A stretch of DNA of 59,012 nt from Bacteroidales bacterium. GTDB lineage: Bacteria; Bacteroidota; Bacteroidia; Bacteroidales; Muribaculaceae. Both the position numbers and the translations under genes were made by a program. This document shows, piece by piece, positions 11,262 through 27,441 of this stretch. Every line of letters begins with the position of its first letter. The stretch's first letter is position 1. The notes beneath the pieces are model-generated. The model saw nothing but the letters and a program-made list of their open reading frames with translations, was not told where the DNA came from and made no database searches. Location of the stretch: positions 13,989 to 73,000 of the forward strand of contig JAAVFP010000006.1 of the NCBI GenBank assembly GCA_014800735.1, read 5' to 3'.

Positions 11262-11376
11262 GAGAGTTCTTAGGGTCATTAAGGTCCTTAGGGTGTTTAG
11301 GGTCCTTAAAGTCCTTAACGACCTTAATGACCCTAAACACCTTAAACACCCTAAACACCCTAAGTACCCTAAAGCC
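11262..11376. repeat. array of TTAGGGT-like units with two competing perfect stems
   Basis: This fills much of the 314-bp gap between 11251 and rsmH. The units TTAGGGTC, TTAAGGTCC and CCCTAAACAC recur in both orientations. Stem A pairs 11271-11285 with 11321-11335 (15 bp perfect). Stem B pairs 11287-11302 with 11349-11364 (16 bp perfect). One arm of B lies inside A and the other outside, so they exclude each other or form a pseudoknot. A related array occurs at 25842-25902. No coding potential is evident. Confidence 0.75.
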
Positions 11377-20631: not shown

Positions 20632-21735
20632 ATGCTACGTATCCTGATAAGCGGCGGTGGCACCGGCGGCCACATTTTCCCCGCTCTTTCCATAGCCGAC
20701 TGTTTCCGTCGCCGTTTCCCCGACTGCGAAATTCTGTTTGTAGGCGCTGACAACCGCATGGAGATGGAGCGCGTGCCTGCCGCGGGCTACGACATTGTGG
20801 GGCTGCCCGTTGCGGGCTTTGACCGCAAACACCTGTGGCGCAATTTCTCGGTGCTGGTCAAGCTGTGGAAAAGCATGAGGATGGCACGCAAAATCGTGCG
20901 CGAATTTCGCCCTGACATCGCAATCGGCGTTGGCGGCTACGCCAGCGGCCCGACACTGAAGGCCGCCCAGCGCGCCGGAGTACCTACGCTGCTGCAGGAG
21001 CAGAACTCCTACCCGGGCGTTACCAACAAGATGCTTGCCGCAGGTGCCGGGGCTATCTGCGTGGCCTATCCGGGCCTGGAGCGCTTTTTCCCGGCCGATA
21101 AGATTGTTATGACGGGCAACCCGGTGCGCAAGTCGCTGTTCGACATCACCGAAACGCCTGCCGAGGCCAAGCGGGCCATGGGCTTCGATCCCGAAAAACC
21201 GCTTGTGCTGGTGGTTGGCGGCAGCCTTGGCGCACACACCCTCAACGAGGCCATGATTGAGGCCGTGCAAAGCGGCAAGGTGGTCAAAGCCGATTTCCAG
21301 CTTATGTGGCAGTGCGGCAAGCGCGAGGCCGCGATGTGCGAGGGCGTGGTGGACATCGCCAAGCCGAAAAACCTGAAGGTGAGCGCTTTTATTTCGGACA
21401 TGGCCCGGGCCTACCGTGCGGCCGACCTTGTGGTGGCGCGTGCCGGAGCCGGCACCATCAGCGAGCTTGAGCTGCTGGGCAAGCCTGTGATACTTGTGCC
21501 CTCGCCCAACGTTGCCGAGGATCATCAGCGCCATAACGCACTTGCGCTGACTGAGCGCGGCGCGGCCATCATGGTGCTCGACAAGGACGCCTCCAAGGAC
21601 CTTTGGGACCAGATTGAGATTGTGATTTCCAACCCCGAAACACTGCGCCTGCTGAGCGAGAATATCCTGAAGCTTGCCCTGCCTGACAGCGACGACAAGA
21701 TTGTGGACGCAGCCCTGCGGTTGATGGGCCGCTGA
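20632..21735 (+). CDS. murG: UDP-GlcNAc:lipid I N-acetylglucosaminyltransferase
   Basis: MurG adds GlcNAc to lipid I at the inner face of the membrane, giving lipid II. The 367-aa product has the N-terminal loop ISGGGTGGHIFPALS (residues 6-20), the second glycine-rich loop VGGYASGP, LLQEQNSYPGVTNK, and the C-terminal donor site RAGAGTISELELLGKPVILVPSP. It is the last gene of the dcw run here. The usual next genes (murC, ftsQ, ftsA, ftsZ) are missing; 20 nt after the stop a 36-bp repeat begins and an unrelated gene follows on the other strand. Confidence 0.97.
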   Translation: MLRILISGGGTGGHIFPALSIADCFRRRFPDCEILFVGADNRMEMERVPAAGYDIVGLPVAGFDRKHLWRNFSVLVKLWKSMRMARKIVREFRPDIAIGVGGYASGPTLKAAQRAGVPTLLQEQNSYPGVTNKMLAAGAGAICVAYPGLERFFPADKIVMTGNPVRKSLFDITETPAEAKRAMGFDPEKPLVLVVGGSLGAHTLNEAMIEAVQSGKVVKADFQLMWQCGKREAAMCEGVVDIAKPKNLKVSAFISDMARAYRAADLVVARAGAGTISELELLGKPVILVPSPNVAEDHQRHNALALTERGAAIMVLDKDASKDLWDQIEIVISNPETLRLLSENILKLALPDSDDKIVDAALRLMGR

Positions 21736-21755
21736 GCCGGGGCGCTGTCGCTATT

Positions 21756-21791
21756 TTATTCCTCGCTGCGCTCGGAACACGGTGCACACGC
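21756..21791. repeat. 36-bp direct repeat, left copy
   Basis: This matches 23888-23923 at 35 of 36 positions by eye; the shared core includes CTCGCTGCGCTCGGAACA. The two copies bracket the acyltransferase/AraC pair. This copy starts 21 nt after the murG stop. Confidence 0.8.
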
Positions 21792-21797
21792 CTCAAT

Positions 21798-22946
21798 TCA
21801 AGATTGGATGAGCCCTTTGACAAGCCGGCGGCGTACCGGCGCGTCGTAAAGCCTCTCCACCGCACATGCCACCAGGATGGCGAGAATGAAAATCACGACG
21901 CCGTTGTAGATGTGCACTTCGGCCGAGAGTGCGTCGTGTTTGTAGCGCCAGTCGAAAAGGAGGTAGATAAGCGGGTAGTGAGTGATGTAGAGCGGATATG
22001 ATATCCGCCCCAGCCACTTGCACAGTCTTGTGGTGCGCTCTCCCTGGGTCGCCGTGCCAGCGCCTATCATCAGAATCAGCGGGAACAACACCAGCACGCA
22101 CAGCGATTCGTAGAGGCCGTTGGTCCACCCGTAGGCTCCTATTCCAACCCGCGGCATCAGCAGCGCGGCCGCTATCATCACCGAGCACAGCGCGAAACTC
22201 GCTGCTCCGGCCCATATACGGGCACCGATGCGGTAGACAAGCAGACCGGCAAAGAAGGGATAGAGCAGACGTGTGAAACCGATATAGAGTTGTGTCGGCG
22301 CCAGCGACCATCCGCCGATCATCGTGTAGCGTTCGGCTTCGCGCCCCGCAAGCATACCGAAAATATCAAGATTGCACGACAGATCCACCGACAGCACCGC
22401 GGCAGCCACTACGAAAAGTCCTAAGAGCCACTTCGGGAAACGGCGGATTATCAGCGCATAGAGCAGATTGGCGATATATTCGAATGCAAGCGACCATTGC
22501 GGGCCGTCGAGCGAGTAGCCCTCGCCCCAGCCGCGGATGTCCAGCCCCGAGCTCGTCGGTATCAGCAGGCAGCTCAGCAGCCACACCAGCAGCAGGGTGC
22601 CTACGGTTGTGGTGTCGATATGCGCCAGACCGAAATAGTAGAGCATAGCGCCGAACGTCGCGCCTGCTATCACCATAGGCTGCAGGCGGATGAGGCGGCG
22701 GGCCACAAACTGCTTCAGATTCATATTCCGGCCCCACCGGTCGTCGTAGGCATAGCCCAGCACGAAGCCCGACAGCGCGAAGAAAAAGTCGACGGCAAGA
22801 TAGCCGTGATTGATTATCTGCAGTGCCGGACCCGGCGAATAAATTTCGAAAATATGGAAAGCCACCACGATGATAGCCGCCACACCGCGCAGACCGTCGA
22901 GGATTTCGAACCTCGGTTTAACTGATGTCACACTGTTGGATTGCAT
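21798..22946 (-). CDS. OafA-type membrane acyltransferase (acyltransferase family 3)
   Basis: The 382-aa product has about ten hydrophobic helices and the family 3 N-terminal signature FEILDGLRGVAAIIVVAFH (residues 13-31), including the conserved His after the first helix. The second conserved piece, VDFFFALSGFVLGYAY with RRLIRLQP, lies at about 53-90. Such enzymes move acetyl or other acyl groups to extracytoplasmic sugars. The acceptor cannot be read from sequence. It is divergent from an AraC-type regulator, with both promoters in a short shared gap, suggesting local control. The flanking 36-bp repeats suggest that the pair is a later arrival between murG and the phage-like genes. Confidence 0.88.
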   Translation of the reverse strand: MQSNSVTSVKPRFEILDGLRGVAAIIVVAFHIFEIYSPGPALQIINHGYLAVDFFFALSGFVLGYAYDDRWGRNMNLKQFVARRLIRLQPMVIAGATFGAMLYYFGLAHIDTTTVGTLLLVWLLSCLLIPTSSGLDIRGWGEGYSLDGPQWSLAFEYIANLLYALIIRRFPKWLLGLFVVAAAVLSVDLSCNLDIFGMLAGREAERYTMIGGWSLAPTQLYIGFTRLLYPFFAGLLVYRIGARIWAGAASFALCSVMIAAALLMPRVGIGAYGWTNGLYESLCVLVLFPLILMIGAGTATQGERTTRLCKWLGRISYPLYITHYPLIYLLFDWRYKHDALSAEVHIYNGVVIFILAILVACAVERLYDAPVRRRLVKGLIQS

Positions 22947-23036: not shown

Positions 23037-23864
23037 ATGAATATTGGCCAGTCGAATTTCCGCTTAGACTACGTGTGCCTGCCGCCTGAGCGGAAGATAG
23101 GCATGCACAGGCAGGACACGTGGGAGTTGGTGCTGAATATCCACGGCGCCGGGATGCGCACTATCGGTGCCACGACCTTGCCGATAGGGCCGGGTGAAGT
23201 TATCCTGGTGCCTCCGGGGATACAGCATTTCTGGGATTTCGATGCATCGGATACGGACGCGGACGGTAACATCCGGCACATTGCGCTGATGTTCGGCAGC
23301 GATGTGCTCAGGCAACTGGCATGCGTGTTTCCTGAAATGAGCGAGGTGGCTGAGTGCATCCTGGCAACGGCCGAAGCCGTCGAGGTGCAGGGGGCTGAAA
23401 AAGAGGCGCTGACACACTTGCTGATGGATATGCGCGGACGCTCGGCATTGGCGCGCCTGCCGCTGATAATTGAAGTTCTGACGGTGCTGGGGCGGGCAAA
23501 GAGCACGTTGACGGTTGGAGCGTACACCACGCTTTCGCGCGAGGAGGTTCTGATGGAGAGATTGCGCACCTACTGCGTATGCAACATGGCGCGCAATCTC
23601 AGCCTTGATGAGGTGGCCGCGTATACGGGCATGAGCAAATCAGCGTTCTGCTCGTTCATGCGCCGGACGGTGGGTATGTCGTTCACGGAATATGTGAACG
23701 GGATGCGGCTTGCCAAGGCCGCATTGCTGCTGTCGGACGGCAATGAGCGGATTTCGGATGTGGCCTATCTGGTGGGGTACACGGATGTGCCTTACTTCAA
23801 CCGGCGGTTCAAGGCGCGATATGGAGTGACGCCGACGGAGTTCCGGCACCGGAAGGGACGGTGA
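23037..23864 (+). CDS. AraC-family transcriptional regulator
   Basis: The 275-aa product has an N-terminal cupin-like sensor domain: DTWELVLNIHGAG, then PGEVILVPPGIQHFW near residues 50-66. The C-terminal AraC DNA-binding domain has two helix-turn-helix units: SLDEVAAYTGMSKSAFCSFMRRTVGMSFTEYVN and ISDVAYLVGYTDVPYFNRRFKARYGVTPTEFR. The second is the standard family signature. It probably controls the divergent acyltransferase and itself; this is inferred from position. The start at 23037 is set by the promoter box immediately before it. It ends 23 nt before the right 36-bp repeat copy. Confidence 0.9.
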   Translation: MNIGQSNFRLDYVCLPPERKIGMHRQDTWELVLNIHGAGMRTIGATTLPIGPGEVILVPPGIQHFWDFDASDTDADGNIRHIALMFGSDVLRQLACVFPEMSEVAECILATAEAVEVQGAEKEALTHLLMDMRGRSALARLPLIIEVLTVLGRAKSTLTVGAYTTLSREEVLMERLRTYCVCNMARNLSLDEVAAYTGMSKSAFCSFMRRTVGMSFTEYVNGMRLAKAALLLSDGNERISDVAYLVGYTDVPYFNRRFKARYGVTPTEFRHRKGR

Positions 23865-23887
23865 GGCTTTCCGCTATTATTCCTCTA

Positions 23888-23923
23888 TTATTCCTCGCTG
23901 CGCTCGGAACATGGTGCACACGC
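23888..23923. repeat. 36-bp direct repeat, right copy
   Basis: This is the partner of 21756-21791, with one mismatch (C to T). It lies between the AraC stop and the end of the phage portal gene. A shorter tandem piece (ctattattcct) precedes it at 23872. Confidence 0.8.
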
Positions 23924-23956
23924 TTTGTGGGCGCGCTTCGCTTGCCTTTCCACCAT

Positions 23957-25261
23957 TCAGGTGCGGGCGAGGCGGGCTTTTGTGTTGCGGTTTTCGGTGA
24001 AGGACAGGAAGGTTTCGAACGTGTCGGCCAGGGCCGCGGTGGCGTTGGCCACCTGGGTGTTGAGCATCTGTGCGCCTGTGGCGGAGGAGTCGGAGCGGCC
24101 CAGGAGTGCGTCGCCCACGCCCGATACGTCCTGGAAAAGTTTGAGCTGAAGTTGCAGGAGCTGGTCGGCACCGCTCTGGGCCGTGTTGGTGACAACCTGG
24201 TGGGGCATCACGGGGCCTCGACCGCTCACGGGGAGTACGCCGTCGGACTGAGCCCAGCGGCGGCCTACGTCCTCGAAGGTCATGCCCGGCGGGAGCTGGT
24301 CGGCGGGGAACAGGAGGACGCCTTTGGCCGAGATGGACAGCATGTGGTCAATGAGCGTGACCATGCGGTTGACGCAGCGCTGCTGTTCGATGACATCCTC
24401 GACGAACGGATGTACCTCGCCATCGGTCATGGGGTAGAATTTGACGGCAAAGGGGTGCTGGCGGTGGGGAAAGGGCGAGTCGTACTCGCGGAGCACTGTG
24501 CCATCCGGCGCAAACCATCGGCAGTGCCAAGCAAATTGCATGGTCAGAGGGGCTTCAGGGGCGCTTTCGGAGGCGTCGAAGCTCCACACCTCAACCACAC
24601 GGAAGCGGTCGGGCTGAGCGGTCGAGTAGAAATCCACGCAGCGGTCGGTATCGGCAAAGGTTCCTGTGCTTGCCATCCACTGTTCGGCGCCTTTTTCGAA
24701 TGCCAGGCGGATGTCGGCGGCACGACGGCGCGAGCCATCGGAAAAGCGGTTGACGATTTCTGCCCAGGTCATGTCGTGGAGCTGACCGATGAGTGTGATA
24801 TCGGACCCGCGGGGGTCGGTGAAGGGATTGACGAAAATTGTGGCGGGGTTGACGTTGTCGACCCACACGGCGGTGCCGTCGAAGCGGCGTTCGTGCGAAA
24901 TGCGCTGCACGGCGCAGCCTGAAATCAGAAATTCCTCCATCAGGCGGGCATCCAGCTCGGCCAGCGAGTTGCGTCGGGCAATCTCGCGGATGGCAGGGGC
25001 GGTGTAGAGCTGGCGCTCGGTGCTCATGGTTCGGTAGCGGCCTACCACCGTTTTCACAAGCTGACGGATGAGGTTGTTGGTGATTGGGTTGTGGCCGCGG
25101 CTGCGGGCGTAATCACCCTCGGGGAGGAGGCGACCATCGGTGTCGGGCACGAGGTCGGACCACTGTTTGCCGTAGGTATAGTTCTTGAAGCGTGTGCGAC
25201 GGGCACGGAAGTCGGCCGCAGCGCTCCAGTAGGCATAGGCGCGTTGAAGGAGTTCGTTCAT
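23957..25261 (-). CDS. phage-type portal protein
   Basis: The 434-aa product starts MNELLQRAYAYW. Near residues 60-80 it has NPITNNLIRQLVKTVVGRYR, and near 290-300 PFVEDVIEQQRCVNRM. Near 375-425 it has FQDVSGVGDALLGRS followed by SATGAQMLNTQ. Nucleation near disGi...G.....SG.a is the usual C-terminal portal pattern. Portals form the ring through which DNA enters a capsid. It is much shorter than P22-type portals (about 700 aa) but in the range of small portals. It is the last gene of the capsid-adaptor-portal operon, 4 nt after the adaptor-like gene. No terminase gene adjoins it. The family call rests on motif shape; the frame is intact. Confidence 0.72.
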   Translation of the reverse strand: MNELLQRAYAYWSAAADFRARRTRFKNYTYGKQWSDLVPDTDGRLLPEGDYARSRGHNPITNNLIRQLVKTVVGRYRTMSTERQLYTAPAIREIARRNSLAELDARLMEEFLISGCAVQRISHERRFDGTAVWVDNVNPATIFVNPFTDPRGSDITLIGQLHDMTWAEIVNRFSDGSRRRAADIRLAFEKGAEQWMASTGTFADTDRCVDFYSTAQPDRFRVVEVWSFDASESAPEAPLTMQFAWHCRWFAPDGTVLREYDSPFPHRQHPFAVKFYPMTDGEVHPFVEDVIEQQRCVNRMVTLIDHMLSISAKGVLLFPADQLPPGMTFEDVGRRWAQSDGVLPVSGRGPVMPHQVVTNTAQSGADQLLQLQLKLFQDVSGVGDALLGRSDSSATGAQMLNTQVANATAALADTFETFLSFTENRNTKARLART

Positions 25262-25265
25262 AGTA

Positions 25266-25823
25266 TTATATATCGATGAGGATGTTGGATTGCGGCATGG
25301 TGGCCAGGGCTGAGGGGTCGAGGATGTAGATGTGTTCGCCGCGGTCCACCACGGCACTGAGATGGGCGATACCACTGTCAGCGGGCCAGGCGTAGACGGC
25401 GGGCTGGTGCGTAGTGCCGATGTCCTGGGCCATAACGGCCACGGGTGCGACAGGAGTGGCGGCAGTGTAGGGGTTGCGCTGGCGGCGGAGCACGCCGGTA
25501 AATTCGGAGGCCGGCAGGATGGGCACGGAGTGGGCCCAGCCGCGCAGGCGCACGCTGAAGGCGCGGCGGCAGCGCTCGGGAAGCAATATGGTGGCGCCGT
25601 CTGTACCGGCTGTGAAGCTGACCTCGGAGGCGATGTTTTCGGGAGCCAGCAGGCGCGGGTCGGCATGGTCCAGAAGGTCGAGGTACCAGCGGCGCAGCTG
25701 CACCTGGAGGATGGCATCGATGCTCACGCCGTCGGTGCGCTCCACGGCAAGCGAGGTGTTGCGCGCTTCGAGGCCTCCAAGGGTGCGCCGCAGGGCAAGT
25801 ATTTCGGTGGCGGGGTAGGTCAT
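25266..25823 (-). CDS. hypothetical protein, possible phage head-tail adaptor
   Basis: The 185-aa product starts MTYPATEILALRR and has an alpha-helical N-terminal half (IDAILQVQLRRWYLDLLDHA). A beta-rich second half ends QSNILIDI. I do not recognise a named family. Position between capsid and portal genes and the size fit a head-completion or adaptor protein, but this is inference only. It ends 4 nt before the portal start, so the two are almost certainly co-translated. No signal peptide or membrane helix is visible. Confidence 0.65.
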   Translation of the reverse strand: MTYPATEILALRRTLGGLEARNTSLAVERTDGVSIDAILQVQLRRWYLDLLDHADPRLLAPENIASEVSFTAGTDGATILLPERCRRAFSVRLRGWAHSVPILPASEFTGVLRRQRNPYTAATPVAPVAVMAQDIGTTHQPAVYAWPADSGIAHLSAVVDRGEHIYILDPSALATMPQSNILIDI

Positions 25824-25841
25824 TTTTTTGTTTTTTTGGGG

Positions 25842-25902
25842 GTAGGGTCATTAGGGTCTTTAAGGTCCTTAAGGACTTTAACGTCCCTAAGGACCCTATG
25901 GA
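25842..25902. repeat. second TTAGGGTC/AAGGTCC inverted-repeat array
   Basis: It lies in the 103-bp gap between the capsid and adaptor-like genes. TAGGGTC occurs at 25843 and 25852 and inverted at 25892-25898. GTCCTTAAGGAC (25865-25876) is a perfect 12-bp palindrome in the centre. The units match those at 11262-11376. Within the operon it may fold in the mRNA and set the capsid:portal ratio; this is inference. Confidence 0.7.
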
Positions 25903-25926
25903 CTCTATATGGCCTGTTTTCGCTGG

Positions 25927-27159
25927 TTAGTTCTGGCTTTTCTTGCCGATGATGCGGCAGTGGGCGTTGGGATAGCGGAGCACCAGGCAGGATGCTTCGG
26001 TGAGCACCACGGCATCGGTGTTGCGCTGGCCCGAAGCGCGGAGGTCGAGGGTGTCGGCGCGGAAGGGGATGTGGACGTACTTGGTGATGTAGTCGGGGTC
26101 CAGCACGATGCCGTCGGCAGCATGGCCGCACTGGTCAAACACCTCGGAGTGCACAATGAAGATACTGCCGAAGTTGGTGACCACCTCGCGGAACTGGATG
26201 CCCCAGCGGGTGAAGCTCTCATCGCCGTTCACACAGCGCTTCACGGTGATTTTGTTGATTTCCTCGATGAGCTTGGTGCCGGCCACCATTATTTTGCGCT
26301 TGGAGCCTGCGCCGTTGGCGAATACGTGCGCGGCCATGGCGATGAGCTTGTTCTCGTTCATACCCGAGCCAAATTCAAGCTCGAATTCCTTGCCGGCCTG
26401 GCTCCATATGCCCTGAGTGAAGAACACGGGCTGCTTTTTCTCCGGGTCGGTAATCACGGCCTTCTGCCCGAACAGGAAGCTTTTCTCCATGCCAAGACGC
26501 ATGTCGATGACGGCTGCTTCCTCCTGGTCGGAGAACGACCAGCTCACTTCCTTGTTGGCCATCTTGGCCAGTGTGCTGGTTTCGACCTGCATTTTGAAAA
26601 TCTGGCAATTATTGCGCTCCTTGCGGGGCACGCAGGCAAACTGACCAGTCTGCACGTCGAGCTCGGCGGCGGCACGGCCCATGCGCTCAATCCGCGAGCC
26701 GACGGGGATGGCGGGGAAGAACAGAGGGTCGGGGCCCGAACCGTTGACGGTGACGCCGTTGACGGGGCTCATCACCACGCCGTTGTCGTTCACCTTGACC
26801 ACGTAGAGCATCAGGGGCTGGCCATTGCCACCCTTCACGTCGGGCACAAGGACGGTTTCGGAGGCATCGAAGATGCTGTTGTCGGCAGTCTGGATATTGA
26901 GGGTGTAGATTTCGCCGTTGCGCGTACCGGCGCCGTTGGCAACCGCCGCAGTGGTTACGGTGCCGGTGGGGCGGGTGTCCACCGAGTAGTAGTCCACGGT
27001 CATGGCCCCCGCATGGCGGGGCATAGCACAGCGGCTGAGCTGGTCGATGGGGGTAGAGGTGGGCATAATCTTGGTAATACGCTGGTCGATGGCGTTGCGG
27101 AGCAGCTCAGGCGACTCCTGAGCGATGGCAGTGGTGGTGGTAGGCTGGTTGTTAATCAT
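25927..27159 (-). CDS. phage-type major capsid protein (DUF5309/SU10-like)
   Basis: The 410-aa product resembles capsid proteins of the DUF5309/SU10 type, which have the HK97 fold. An N-terminal arm (to about residue 30) is followed by IDQLSRCAMPRHAGAMTVDYYSVDTRP. A long middle has VSWSFSDQEEAAVIDMRLGMEKSFLFGQ near 215-240, SGMNENKLIAMAAHVFANGAGSKRKIMVAGTKLIEEINK near 275-310, and LDPDYI with a C-terminal beta stretch. This is the usual pattern of a tag, a helical spine and a late P domain. The frame is complete. No protease or scaffold gene is evident beside it. It is read from a host-type promoter at 27434-27441. Encapsulin-like use instead of a phage head cannot be excluded. Confidence 0.7.
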   Translation of the reverse strand: MINNQPTTTTAIAQESPELLRNAIDQRITKIMPTSTPIDQLSRCAMPRHAGAMTVDYYSVDTRPTGTVTTAAVANGAGTRNGEIYTLNIQTADNSIFDASETVLVPDVKGGNGQPLMLYVVKVNDNGVVMSPVNGVTVNGSGPDPLFFPAIPVGSRIERMGRAAAELDVQTGQFACVPRKERNNCQIFKMQVETSTLAKMANKEVSWSFSDQEEAAVIDMRLGMEKSFLFGQKAVITDPEKKQPVFFTQGIWSQAGKEFELEFGSGMNENKLIAMAAHVFANGAGSKRKIMVAGTKLIEEINKITVKRCVNGDESFTRWGIQFREVVTNFGSIFIVHSEVFDQCGHAADGIVLDPDYITKYVHIPFRADTLDLRASGQRNTDAVVLTEASCLVLRYPNAHCRIIGKKSQN

Positions 27160-27180
27160 AATAGAGTAAGAATTAAAGGA

Positions 27181-27372
27181 TTAATAATTAGTTTTGTTGC
27201 AGAAGTCCCAGAACGAGGGGCGGATGCTGCGGAGAATAGGAGGATTGGTGAAATCGTCGTCGGCTGCGGCCGCGGCAGGGTCGGAGCCGGGAGTGCCGGG
27301 GCTTTGGAACAGTGGGATGTCAGGTGCGTCGGCTGTGGCGGGAGCCGCCTGAGGGGTGGTGTTTTCGCTCAT
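27181..27372 (-). CDS. small acidic Pro/Ala-rich protein leading the capsid operon
   Basis: The 63-aa product starts MSENTTPQAAPATADAPDIP and ends SIRPSFWDFCNKTNY. It is low-complexity in its first half (Pro, Ala, Asp) and has an aromatic tail. It is the first ORF after the operon promoter and lies 21 nt before the capsid gene. I do not recognise a family. A small capsid-associated or scaffold-like role is possible but unsupported beyond position. Confidence 0.5.
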   Translation of the reverse strand: MSENTTPQAAPATADAPDIPLFQSPGTPGSDPAAAAADDDFTNPPILRSIRPSFWDFCNKTNY

Positions 27373-27433
27373 AGTATCGAATAATTCTGAAAGATTTTTG
27401 GGAAAAGATTTCGTTGTGTCATTGTTGACGATG

Positions 27434-27441
27434 CAAAGTTA
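27434..27441 (-). promoter_or_regulatory. -7 promoter box of the capsid-portal operon
   Basis: The minus strand reads TAACTTTG, 61 nt before the ATG at 27372. It is a host-type promoter, so the phage-like module may be expressed by the vegetative sigma factor. Confidence 0.55.

Follow-up and report, generated by a model that had tools for sequence, protein, structure and literature searches.

A phage-head gene module of Muribaculaceae as the probable head part of a scattered, gene-transfer-agent-like packaging system of Bacteroidales

RcGTA and its relatives in Alphaproteobacteria are gene transfer agents (GTAs) whose virion genes pass by vertical descent, with a conserved terminase and with extra loci outside the main cluster. 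RcGTA is siphovirus-like. FpGTA of Faecalibacterium is described as a small inherited operon of podovirus-type terminase, portal, scaffold and capsid genes together with a second, unlinked operon of structural and lysis genes; it is reported there as near-ubiquitous in Faecalibacterium, and its particles and packaged DNA have been demonstrated experimentally (Borodovich et al. 2026, PMC12946183). The same paper presents PBSX of Bacillus subtilis as a domesticated particle that packages host DNA and reports lateral transduction for Bacteroides, and 'Muribacul' does not appear in its text by term search (PMC12946183). Here we analyse a stretch of 59,012 nucleotides (the window) from Muribaculaceae contig JAAVFP010000006.1, order Bacteroidales, in which four adjacent genes form a phage-like head module with a probable small scaffold, a capsid, a probable adaptor and a portal. 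At title and abstract level, with bioRxiv outside the coverage, the literature contains GTAs of Alphaproteobacteria, Brachyspira and Faecalibacterium, and no GTA gene clusters were found for Bacteroidales; at the same level, papers on Muribaculaceae with prophage or capsid gave no description of this system.

We read the module as the head portion of a DNA-packaging system of Bacteroidales that is ancient, vertically inherited and scattered, as well as podovirus-derived, GTA-like and reduced in this lineage, and put the probability of this reading at roughly 0.7. By description, the Bacteroidales system, known from its genes alone, resembles FpGTA in having podovirus-type head genes that are inherited. 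It differs from FpGTA in phylum and in its particle genes, which often lie over several loci and occur in a whole family and six more. In contrast to siphovirus-like RcGTA, it has a P22-type portal, an SU10-type capsid and a nozzle. Again by description, it would have in common with PBSX a domesticated particle, and the packaging of host DNA, a PBSX feature, would be a property of the module as well. The features of the module and its surroundings are as follows (open reading frame, ORF; amino acids, aa; nucleotides, nt).

27434-27441, minus strand: promoter-like box TAACTTTG, upstream of the module
27372-27181, minus strand: 63-aa ORF, probable miniaturised head scaffold ending in RPSFWDFCNKTNY (position, motif, weak match)
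27159-25927, minus strand: major capsid protein, SU10_MCP type, 410 aa (Pfam, sequence match to a solved structure)
25824-25926, no strand: 103-nt gap with a palindromic repeat (repeat search)
25864-25886 (up to 25895): palindromic repeat GGTCCTTAAGGACTTTAACGTCC, with a related copy at 11301-11323; none expected by chance
25823-25266, minus strand: most likely an adaptor or ring (head-to-tail) protein, 185 aa (25-sequence family, predicted fold)
25261-23957, minus strand: P22-type portal, 434 aa, without about 190 C-terminal residues of its phage relatives (Pfam, phrog, fold)

All four ORFs run from ATG to a stop codon, with intergenic gaps of 21, 103 and 4 nt. The GC content at third codon positions is 0.67-0.83 in the module and 0.72-0.81 in six host genes of the window, a host-like composition. 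By Pfam, the module is flanked by the genes of an AraC-type regulator and an alanine dehydrogenase. The TAACTTTG box is present six times in the window against 0.8 expected by chance, and it seems on this count to be a generic host promoter element. The first-pass annotation, made from the letters alone, had described four intact same-strand frames of these lengths, their spacing with a repeat-filled gap, a promoter box, a capsid and a portal, AraC and ald flanks and a host-like composition; each of these holds, the spacing exactly. As a separate observation, similar short stretches at 23809-24195 and 21569-21865 read HHVPSAARN and HRVPSAARN in minus-strand frames, close to the 3' ends of the portal and acyltransferase genes, and are perhaps a small dispersed repeat.

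By sequence comparison, the identities of the capsid and the portal are certain. The capsid protein matches Pfam SU10_MCP (E 6e-47) and, by sequence, the solved phage capsid 9in6 (E 1.5e-8), and the portal protein matches Pfam P22_portal (E 1.4e-20) and phrog_156 (E 4e-36). Structure prediction, one of the checks that the first-pass annotation had proposed, agrees: the predicted portal fold (pLDDT 81) matches podovirus portals, with a best E of 2e-16. The 185-aa protein has no significant family match by sequence. Its AlphaFold2 model (pLDDT 91.5) finds chains of the phicrAss001 tail-barrel assembly as best PDB matches (E 6e-4 and 8e-4) at modest TM-scores of just 0.44 and 0.42, and its best viral model match is an uncharacterised Podoviridae protein (E 6e-6); from these matches we read it as most likely an adaptor or ring. 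The 63-aa ORF is probably a reduced head scaffold, judging from its position 5' of the capsid gene, its S-x-W-D motif and a weak match (32%, E 7e-5) to a small ORF of locus L010. NCBIfam gave no match for seven proteins. PADLOC gave none for the four module proteins, and defence by known families was rejected on that result.

The module genes are near-universal in the family. In 247 genomes sampled evenly across Muribaculaceae (30 genera), the capsid model matches 226, the portal model 231, the large-terminase model 227 and the nozzle model 217, each in 29 of the 30 genera and mostly as a single copy per genome. Capsid, portal and terminase are found together in 211 genomes and are all unmatched in six, against 0.1 expected under independent loss; five of these six are less than 90% complete. 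One genome, G525, was taken by elimination as the 21st without a capsid match.

A scan of GTDB contigs yielded 37 loci (L001-L037) with capsids 43-59% identical to that of the window. Their titles are of Bacteroidales type except for one 'Staphylococcus' metagenome-assembled genome (MAG; L034). The adaptor gene follows the capsid gene in 25 of the 37 loci and the portal gene in 26, and some loci have up to two extra small genes (c6, c7) further on. In nine loci (L023-L026, L028, L030, L031, L034, L037), neither an adaptor nor a portal match lies next to the capsid, and two others end at a contig edge. In L023-L025, whose capsids are identical to those of genomes G331, G351 and G311, the portal is on a separate contig. 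L034, titled Staphylococcus sp., has Bacteroidales-type sequence and neighbours in common with L028, L030, L031 and L037; it is probably a mislabelled or mixed MAG. We also observed that the gene of an ion-channel-like membrane protein (PF07885 just below the cut-off, phrog_7872 E 5e-18) adjoins the module in nine window-family loci (L002, L007, L008, L015, L019, L020, L027, L036 and L312, with L015 and L312 from one genome) and lies by the fumarase/head cluster of L086 in another family; a functional or positional link is possible.

The terminase retains its catalytic residues. In an alignment of 23 rows (21 chromosomal, one prophage, one phage), these residues are invariant: Walker A (K-A-R-Q-W-G-x-S-T), the Walker B glutamate, EST, and the nuclease D/GG, E-x-N and HDD. 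Among 20 terminase loci fetched, not as a random draw, the nozzle gene is adjacent to the terminase gene in 13, separated from it by one small gene in one and further off in one. In two genomes of genus g3, G386 (L320) and G131, a single cluster of about 10 kb comprises the nozzle, terminase, capsid, adaptor and portal genes and two neck-like ones, with a small ORF called between terminase and capsid in G386. In L319, a single ORF on the opposite strand separates the portal from the terminase that follows it. Capsid and portal are about 100 kb apart on one contig in G419 and on different contigs in G404, G297 and G351. At family level, capsid, portal and a terminase with these residues would together make up a DNA-packaging machine.

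Phage relatives were found with alignments: the scan of viral contigs with a single capsid sequence gave no relative, and the scan with alignments gave 139 portal and 103 capsid matches, the best 80 of each being kept. The temperate Bacteroides phage BKO1-TP3 (PQ571269, hereafter TP3) and a prophage on contig C18 of the window genome are related to the module, with capsids 37% and 28% and portals 34% and 33% identical, respectively, and homologous terminases. In profile comparisons, for which six unrelated control pairs gave a probability of at most 0.2, the TP3 scaffold gp48 matches the scaffold profile of other Bacteroidales families (see below) with probability 100, and c6 matches TP3 gp49 with probability 96. 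Unlike the module, TP3 has a single 65-kb genome whose annotation includes integrase and replication genes, and portals of this type have about 640 aa.

Homologues occur in six further Bacteroidales families (f19, f25, f57, f64, f83 and f102), here called sister families. In an order-wide sample, the capsid matched in 25 of 294 genomes, 5 of these in Muribaculaceae, and in f102 it is present in 9 of 9. Sister-family loci have a scaffold of about 255 aa and a capsid, in most cases also a gp46-like protein and an adaptor, and several add a fibre-like protein of about 1100-1260 aa, a phrog_15037 protein of unknown function and an endolysin (phrog_894; an M15 peptidase by Pfam in L093). Twelve scaffold-capsid loci in five families have a fumarase gene, which directly adjoins the scaffold in 11 and is two genes off in L078; Pfam, run on two of these 12 loci, confirmed the fumarase in both. 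In f19 the scaffold-capsid cluster lies beside a different conserved gene (four loci). These fumarase neighbours and the gene contents of the loci, as far as listed, led us to drop an initial reading of L076-L095 as prophages, and k7, initially taken as a possible terminase there, is the fumarase.

The terminase is present in 18 of 18 sister-family genomes and a full-length portal in 17 of 18 (frames 622-724). Capsid, terminase and portal lie 31-277 kb apart in the single-contig genome G272 and 12-46 kb apart in the single-contig genome G240, surrounded by ordinary host genes in the fetched stretches. Portal and nozzle are back to back in four genomes (L379, L380, L382, L386), and near the terminase there are gp57-like genes in L378, L380 and L383 and a gp55-like gene in L378. 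Separately, the capsids of L076-L083, L085, L086 and L092-L094 have a hydrophobic N-terminus (19-residue mean hydropathy 1.9-3.1; window capsid 0.16), as do those of some other loci (L097, L099).

Trees and distances indicate common descent within host families. In the terminase and portal trees, Muribaculaceae form one clade (SH-aLRT support 100) and the other families another (98), and the family labels need six changes, the minimum. In the capsid tree, module-type rows group with three contigs of the viral collection in one clade (support 91); next to it are the sister families together with one viral contig, and TP3-like phages fall outside. All trees are quick searches without bootstrap, and this one has many long branches, the window row among them. 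Pairwise distances of capsid, portal and terminase correlate at 0.89, 0.89 and 0.95 (p 0.0001) over the 25 genomes with all three sequences, the window genome (G000) being dropped because its terminase is that of a prophage. Of the 25 genomes, 23, 25 and 25, respectively, have a member of their own family as nearest neighbour.

The genes are under purifying selection, with a ratio of nonsynonymous to synonymous substitution rates (dN/dS) of about 0.1-0.2. For the capsid, the median is 0.18 in the window family (81 of 140 pairs usable) and 0.11 in other families (28 of 97), rough values inasmuch as dS of the window-family pairs starts at 0.65 and pairs share sequences. The corresponding medians are 0.15 (4 of 5 pairs) and 0.08 (9 of 21) for the portal, 0.15 and 0.10 (3 and 2 pairs) for the adaptor, and 0.09 (1 pair) and 0.10 (15 of 24) for the terminase. 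Presence in 226-231 of 247 genomes, the trees and the host flanks thus make these virus-derived particle genes vertically inherited genes of the host lineage. The 'domesticated' element of the first-pass annotation is strongly supported, and its two further checks agree: medians of 0.08-0.18 give no sign of relaxed selection, and synteny shows no rare fragment, the module being near-universal in the family and placed at conserved sites in sister families.

The family set appears to be reduced further than that of the sister families, to a small scaffold and a portal without its C-terminal region. Portal lengths were taken from complete frames whose match begins within the first 30 model positions, with L001-L037 counted among the window-family members. 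Of the 32 distinct complete family portals, 31 have 424-487 aa, and all of these intact ones are shorter than phage portals by about 190 residues at the C-terminus; the 32nd, in L003 (G341), is 296 aa long and derives from part of a gene broken by a frameshift. Sister-family portals have 578-662 aa (n=19, including a few second copies from G127 and G220 that resemble prophages). Among the viral contigs and TP3, 66 of 71 portals have 580-678 aa and the other five 448-478. L138, L140, L215, L218 and L219, filed as viral, have the short-portal type and are probably misfiled chromosomal loci. The small ORFs upstream of the capsid (15 aligned, 63-141 aa) have a C-terminal S-x-W-D-type motif, which also ends most sister-family scaffolds, and profiles of the two groups match with an hhalign probability of 95.

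These data suggest the following history and mechanism. A relative of podoviruses such as TP3 would have been domesticated before several families split, and its particle genes would have been retained and then dispersed over several chromosomal sites. With the small scaffold as support, capsid subunits may build up around the portal ring, a large terminase encoded elsewhere would cut chromosomal DNA and pump it into the head, and adaptor and nozzle would seal the vertex. The particles would exit by lysis and may deliver their DNA. Particle formation, host-DNA packaging and delivery are what we infer. With slightly better than even odds, the system is a GTA of Bacteroidota that predates several families and is split over chromosomal loci under selection, the Muribaculaceae form having a mini-scaffold and a C-terminally short portal; it may package without that portal region and may be among the most widespread GTAs of animal guts.

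Several observations weigh against this account. The family counts are generous, since some matches are resident prophages (e.g. that on C18) or weak and were not separated genome by genome; weak capsid and nozzle matches of about 1e-7 to 1e-13 occur in genus g203 and in a few g1 genomes. The nozzle was not called near the terminase in 5 of the 20 fetched loci. In two genomes that are 99% complete, G293 and G393, capsid and portal are present but neither the terminase nor the nozzle is matched. Separating GTA-type from phage rows takes two changes instead of one in the portal tree, and phages split off with a support of 70 in the terminase tree. There is no significant profile match of the adaptor family to TP3 gp45 (probability 14), of c7 to gp35-37 (16) or of the small ORFs to gp48 (8). 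Other GTAs carry a carbon-cost signature; here, carbon content per residue mostly followed GC, and such a signature was not supported.

The window genome itself also weighs against the account. Its assembly, 86% complete, shows a terminase and a nozzle of prophage type only, on C18: genome-wide, matches to the capsid, portal, terminase and phage-nozzle models are confined to the module and C18, apart from one weak nozzle match without placement. The prophage on C18, at about 50-94 kb, is TP3-like and encodes a full-length portal as well as a terminase, a scaffold, a nozzle and a protein of 6337 aa. Unlinked terminase and tail genes, which the first-pass annotation had proposed to look for in the same genome, are thus of prophage type there, and its term 'orphan' fits this assembly; it does not fit the family, where relatives keep terminase and nozzle elsewhere, or the sister families, which have scaffold, fibre-like and endolysin genes. 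This assembly shows no host-type terminase or nozzle, and G293 and G393 have no match for either, so a complete packaging machine is proposed for the family level, with the window genome outside that proposal.

It is possible, though we lean against it, that this genome has already lost its terminase and nozzle and keeps the head genes as an intact remnant, which would be compatible with the GTA-like reading of the family. Host-type copies were not found in its assembly, and G341 shows coordinated decay, in that a frameshift divides its portal (L003/L102) and its terminase is unmatched. On the other side, the assembly is just 86% complete and all four frames are intact; nozzle and terminase are mostly adjacent (13 of 20 loci, with one small gene between them in a 14th), and one assembly gap could therefore hide both.

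An unlikely alternative is a PBSX-like killing particle, whose heads package host DNA and which kills or lyses relatives without gene delivery. The same gene content would be expected, and the fibre-like and endolysin genes of other families would suit it, but no killing module was recognised; the present data do not separate a killer from a GTA. Less likely still is a domesticated decoy, in which capsid, adaptor and short portal co-assemble with subunits of infecting TP3 relatives and poison their heads. The conserved portal truncation, the related prophage on C18 and the capsid and portal without a terminase match in G293 and G393 fit a decoy; a catalytic terminase and a nozzle conserved in about 90% of sampled genomes, together with the endolysin and fibre-like genes of sister families, are left unexplained by it, and PADLOC gave no match either.

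The first-pass annotation had offered three readings, of which the GTA-like particle fits best, and the satellite and the protein compartment are disfavoured. An encapsulin-like compartment with a portal could be seen in the nine loci without an adaptor or portal match beside the capsid, but it is highly improbable: in the three that were followed (L023-L025) the portal is on another contig, portal, adaptor and terminase are co-conserved, and the terminase ATPase and nuclease motifs are conserved. A fragment of an ordinary prophage or a phage satellite, which clear homology to temperate phages would favour, is just as improbable, because the genes are near-universal, have family-congruent trees and conserved host flanks and often lie tens to hundreds of kb apart, whereas a satellite would be contiguous, mobile and sporadic. 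An insensitive search with two phage integrases, neither of which finds the other, was negative for the window and for 30 sister-family loci; across 61 window-family loci it gave a single weak match of 62 aa. At the module itself, between AraC and alanine dehydrogenase genes, model searches of the window gave no terminase, nozzle or integrase match, with not every neighbouring gene annotated and with replication and lysis genes outside the searches.

In the mouse gut, Muribaculaceae rank among the dominant bacteria. If the GTA-like reading is true, a family-wide packaging system would be a route of gene exchange beside plasmids and conjugation. The fuller sets of sister families, the compact cluster of the two g3 genomes and the reduced set described here would form a comparative series for virion domestication, and the portal without its C-terminal region would be a natural test of the role of that region.

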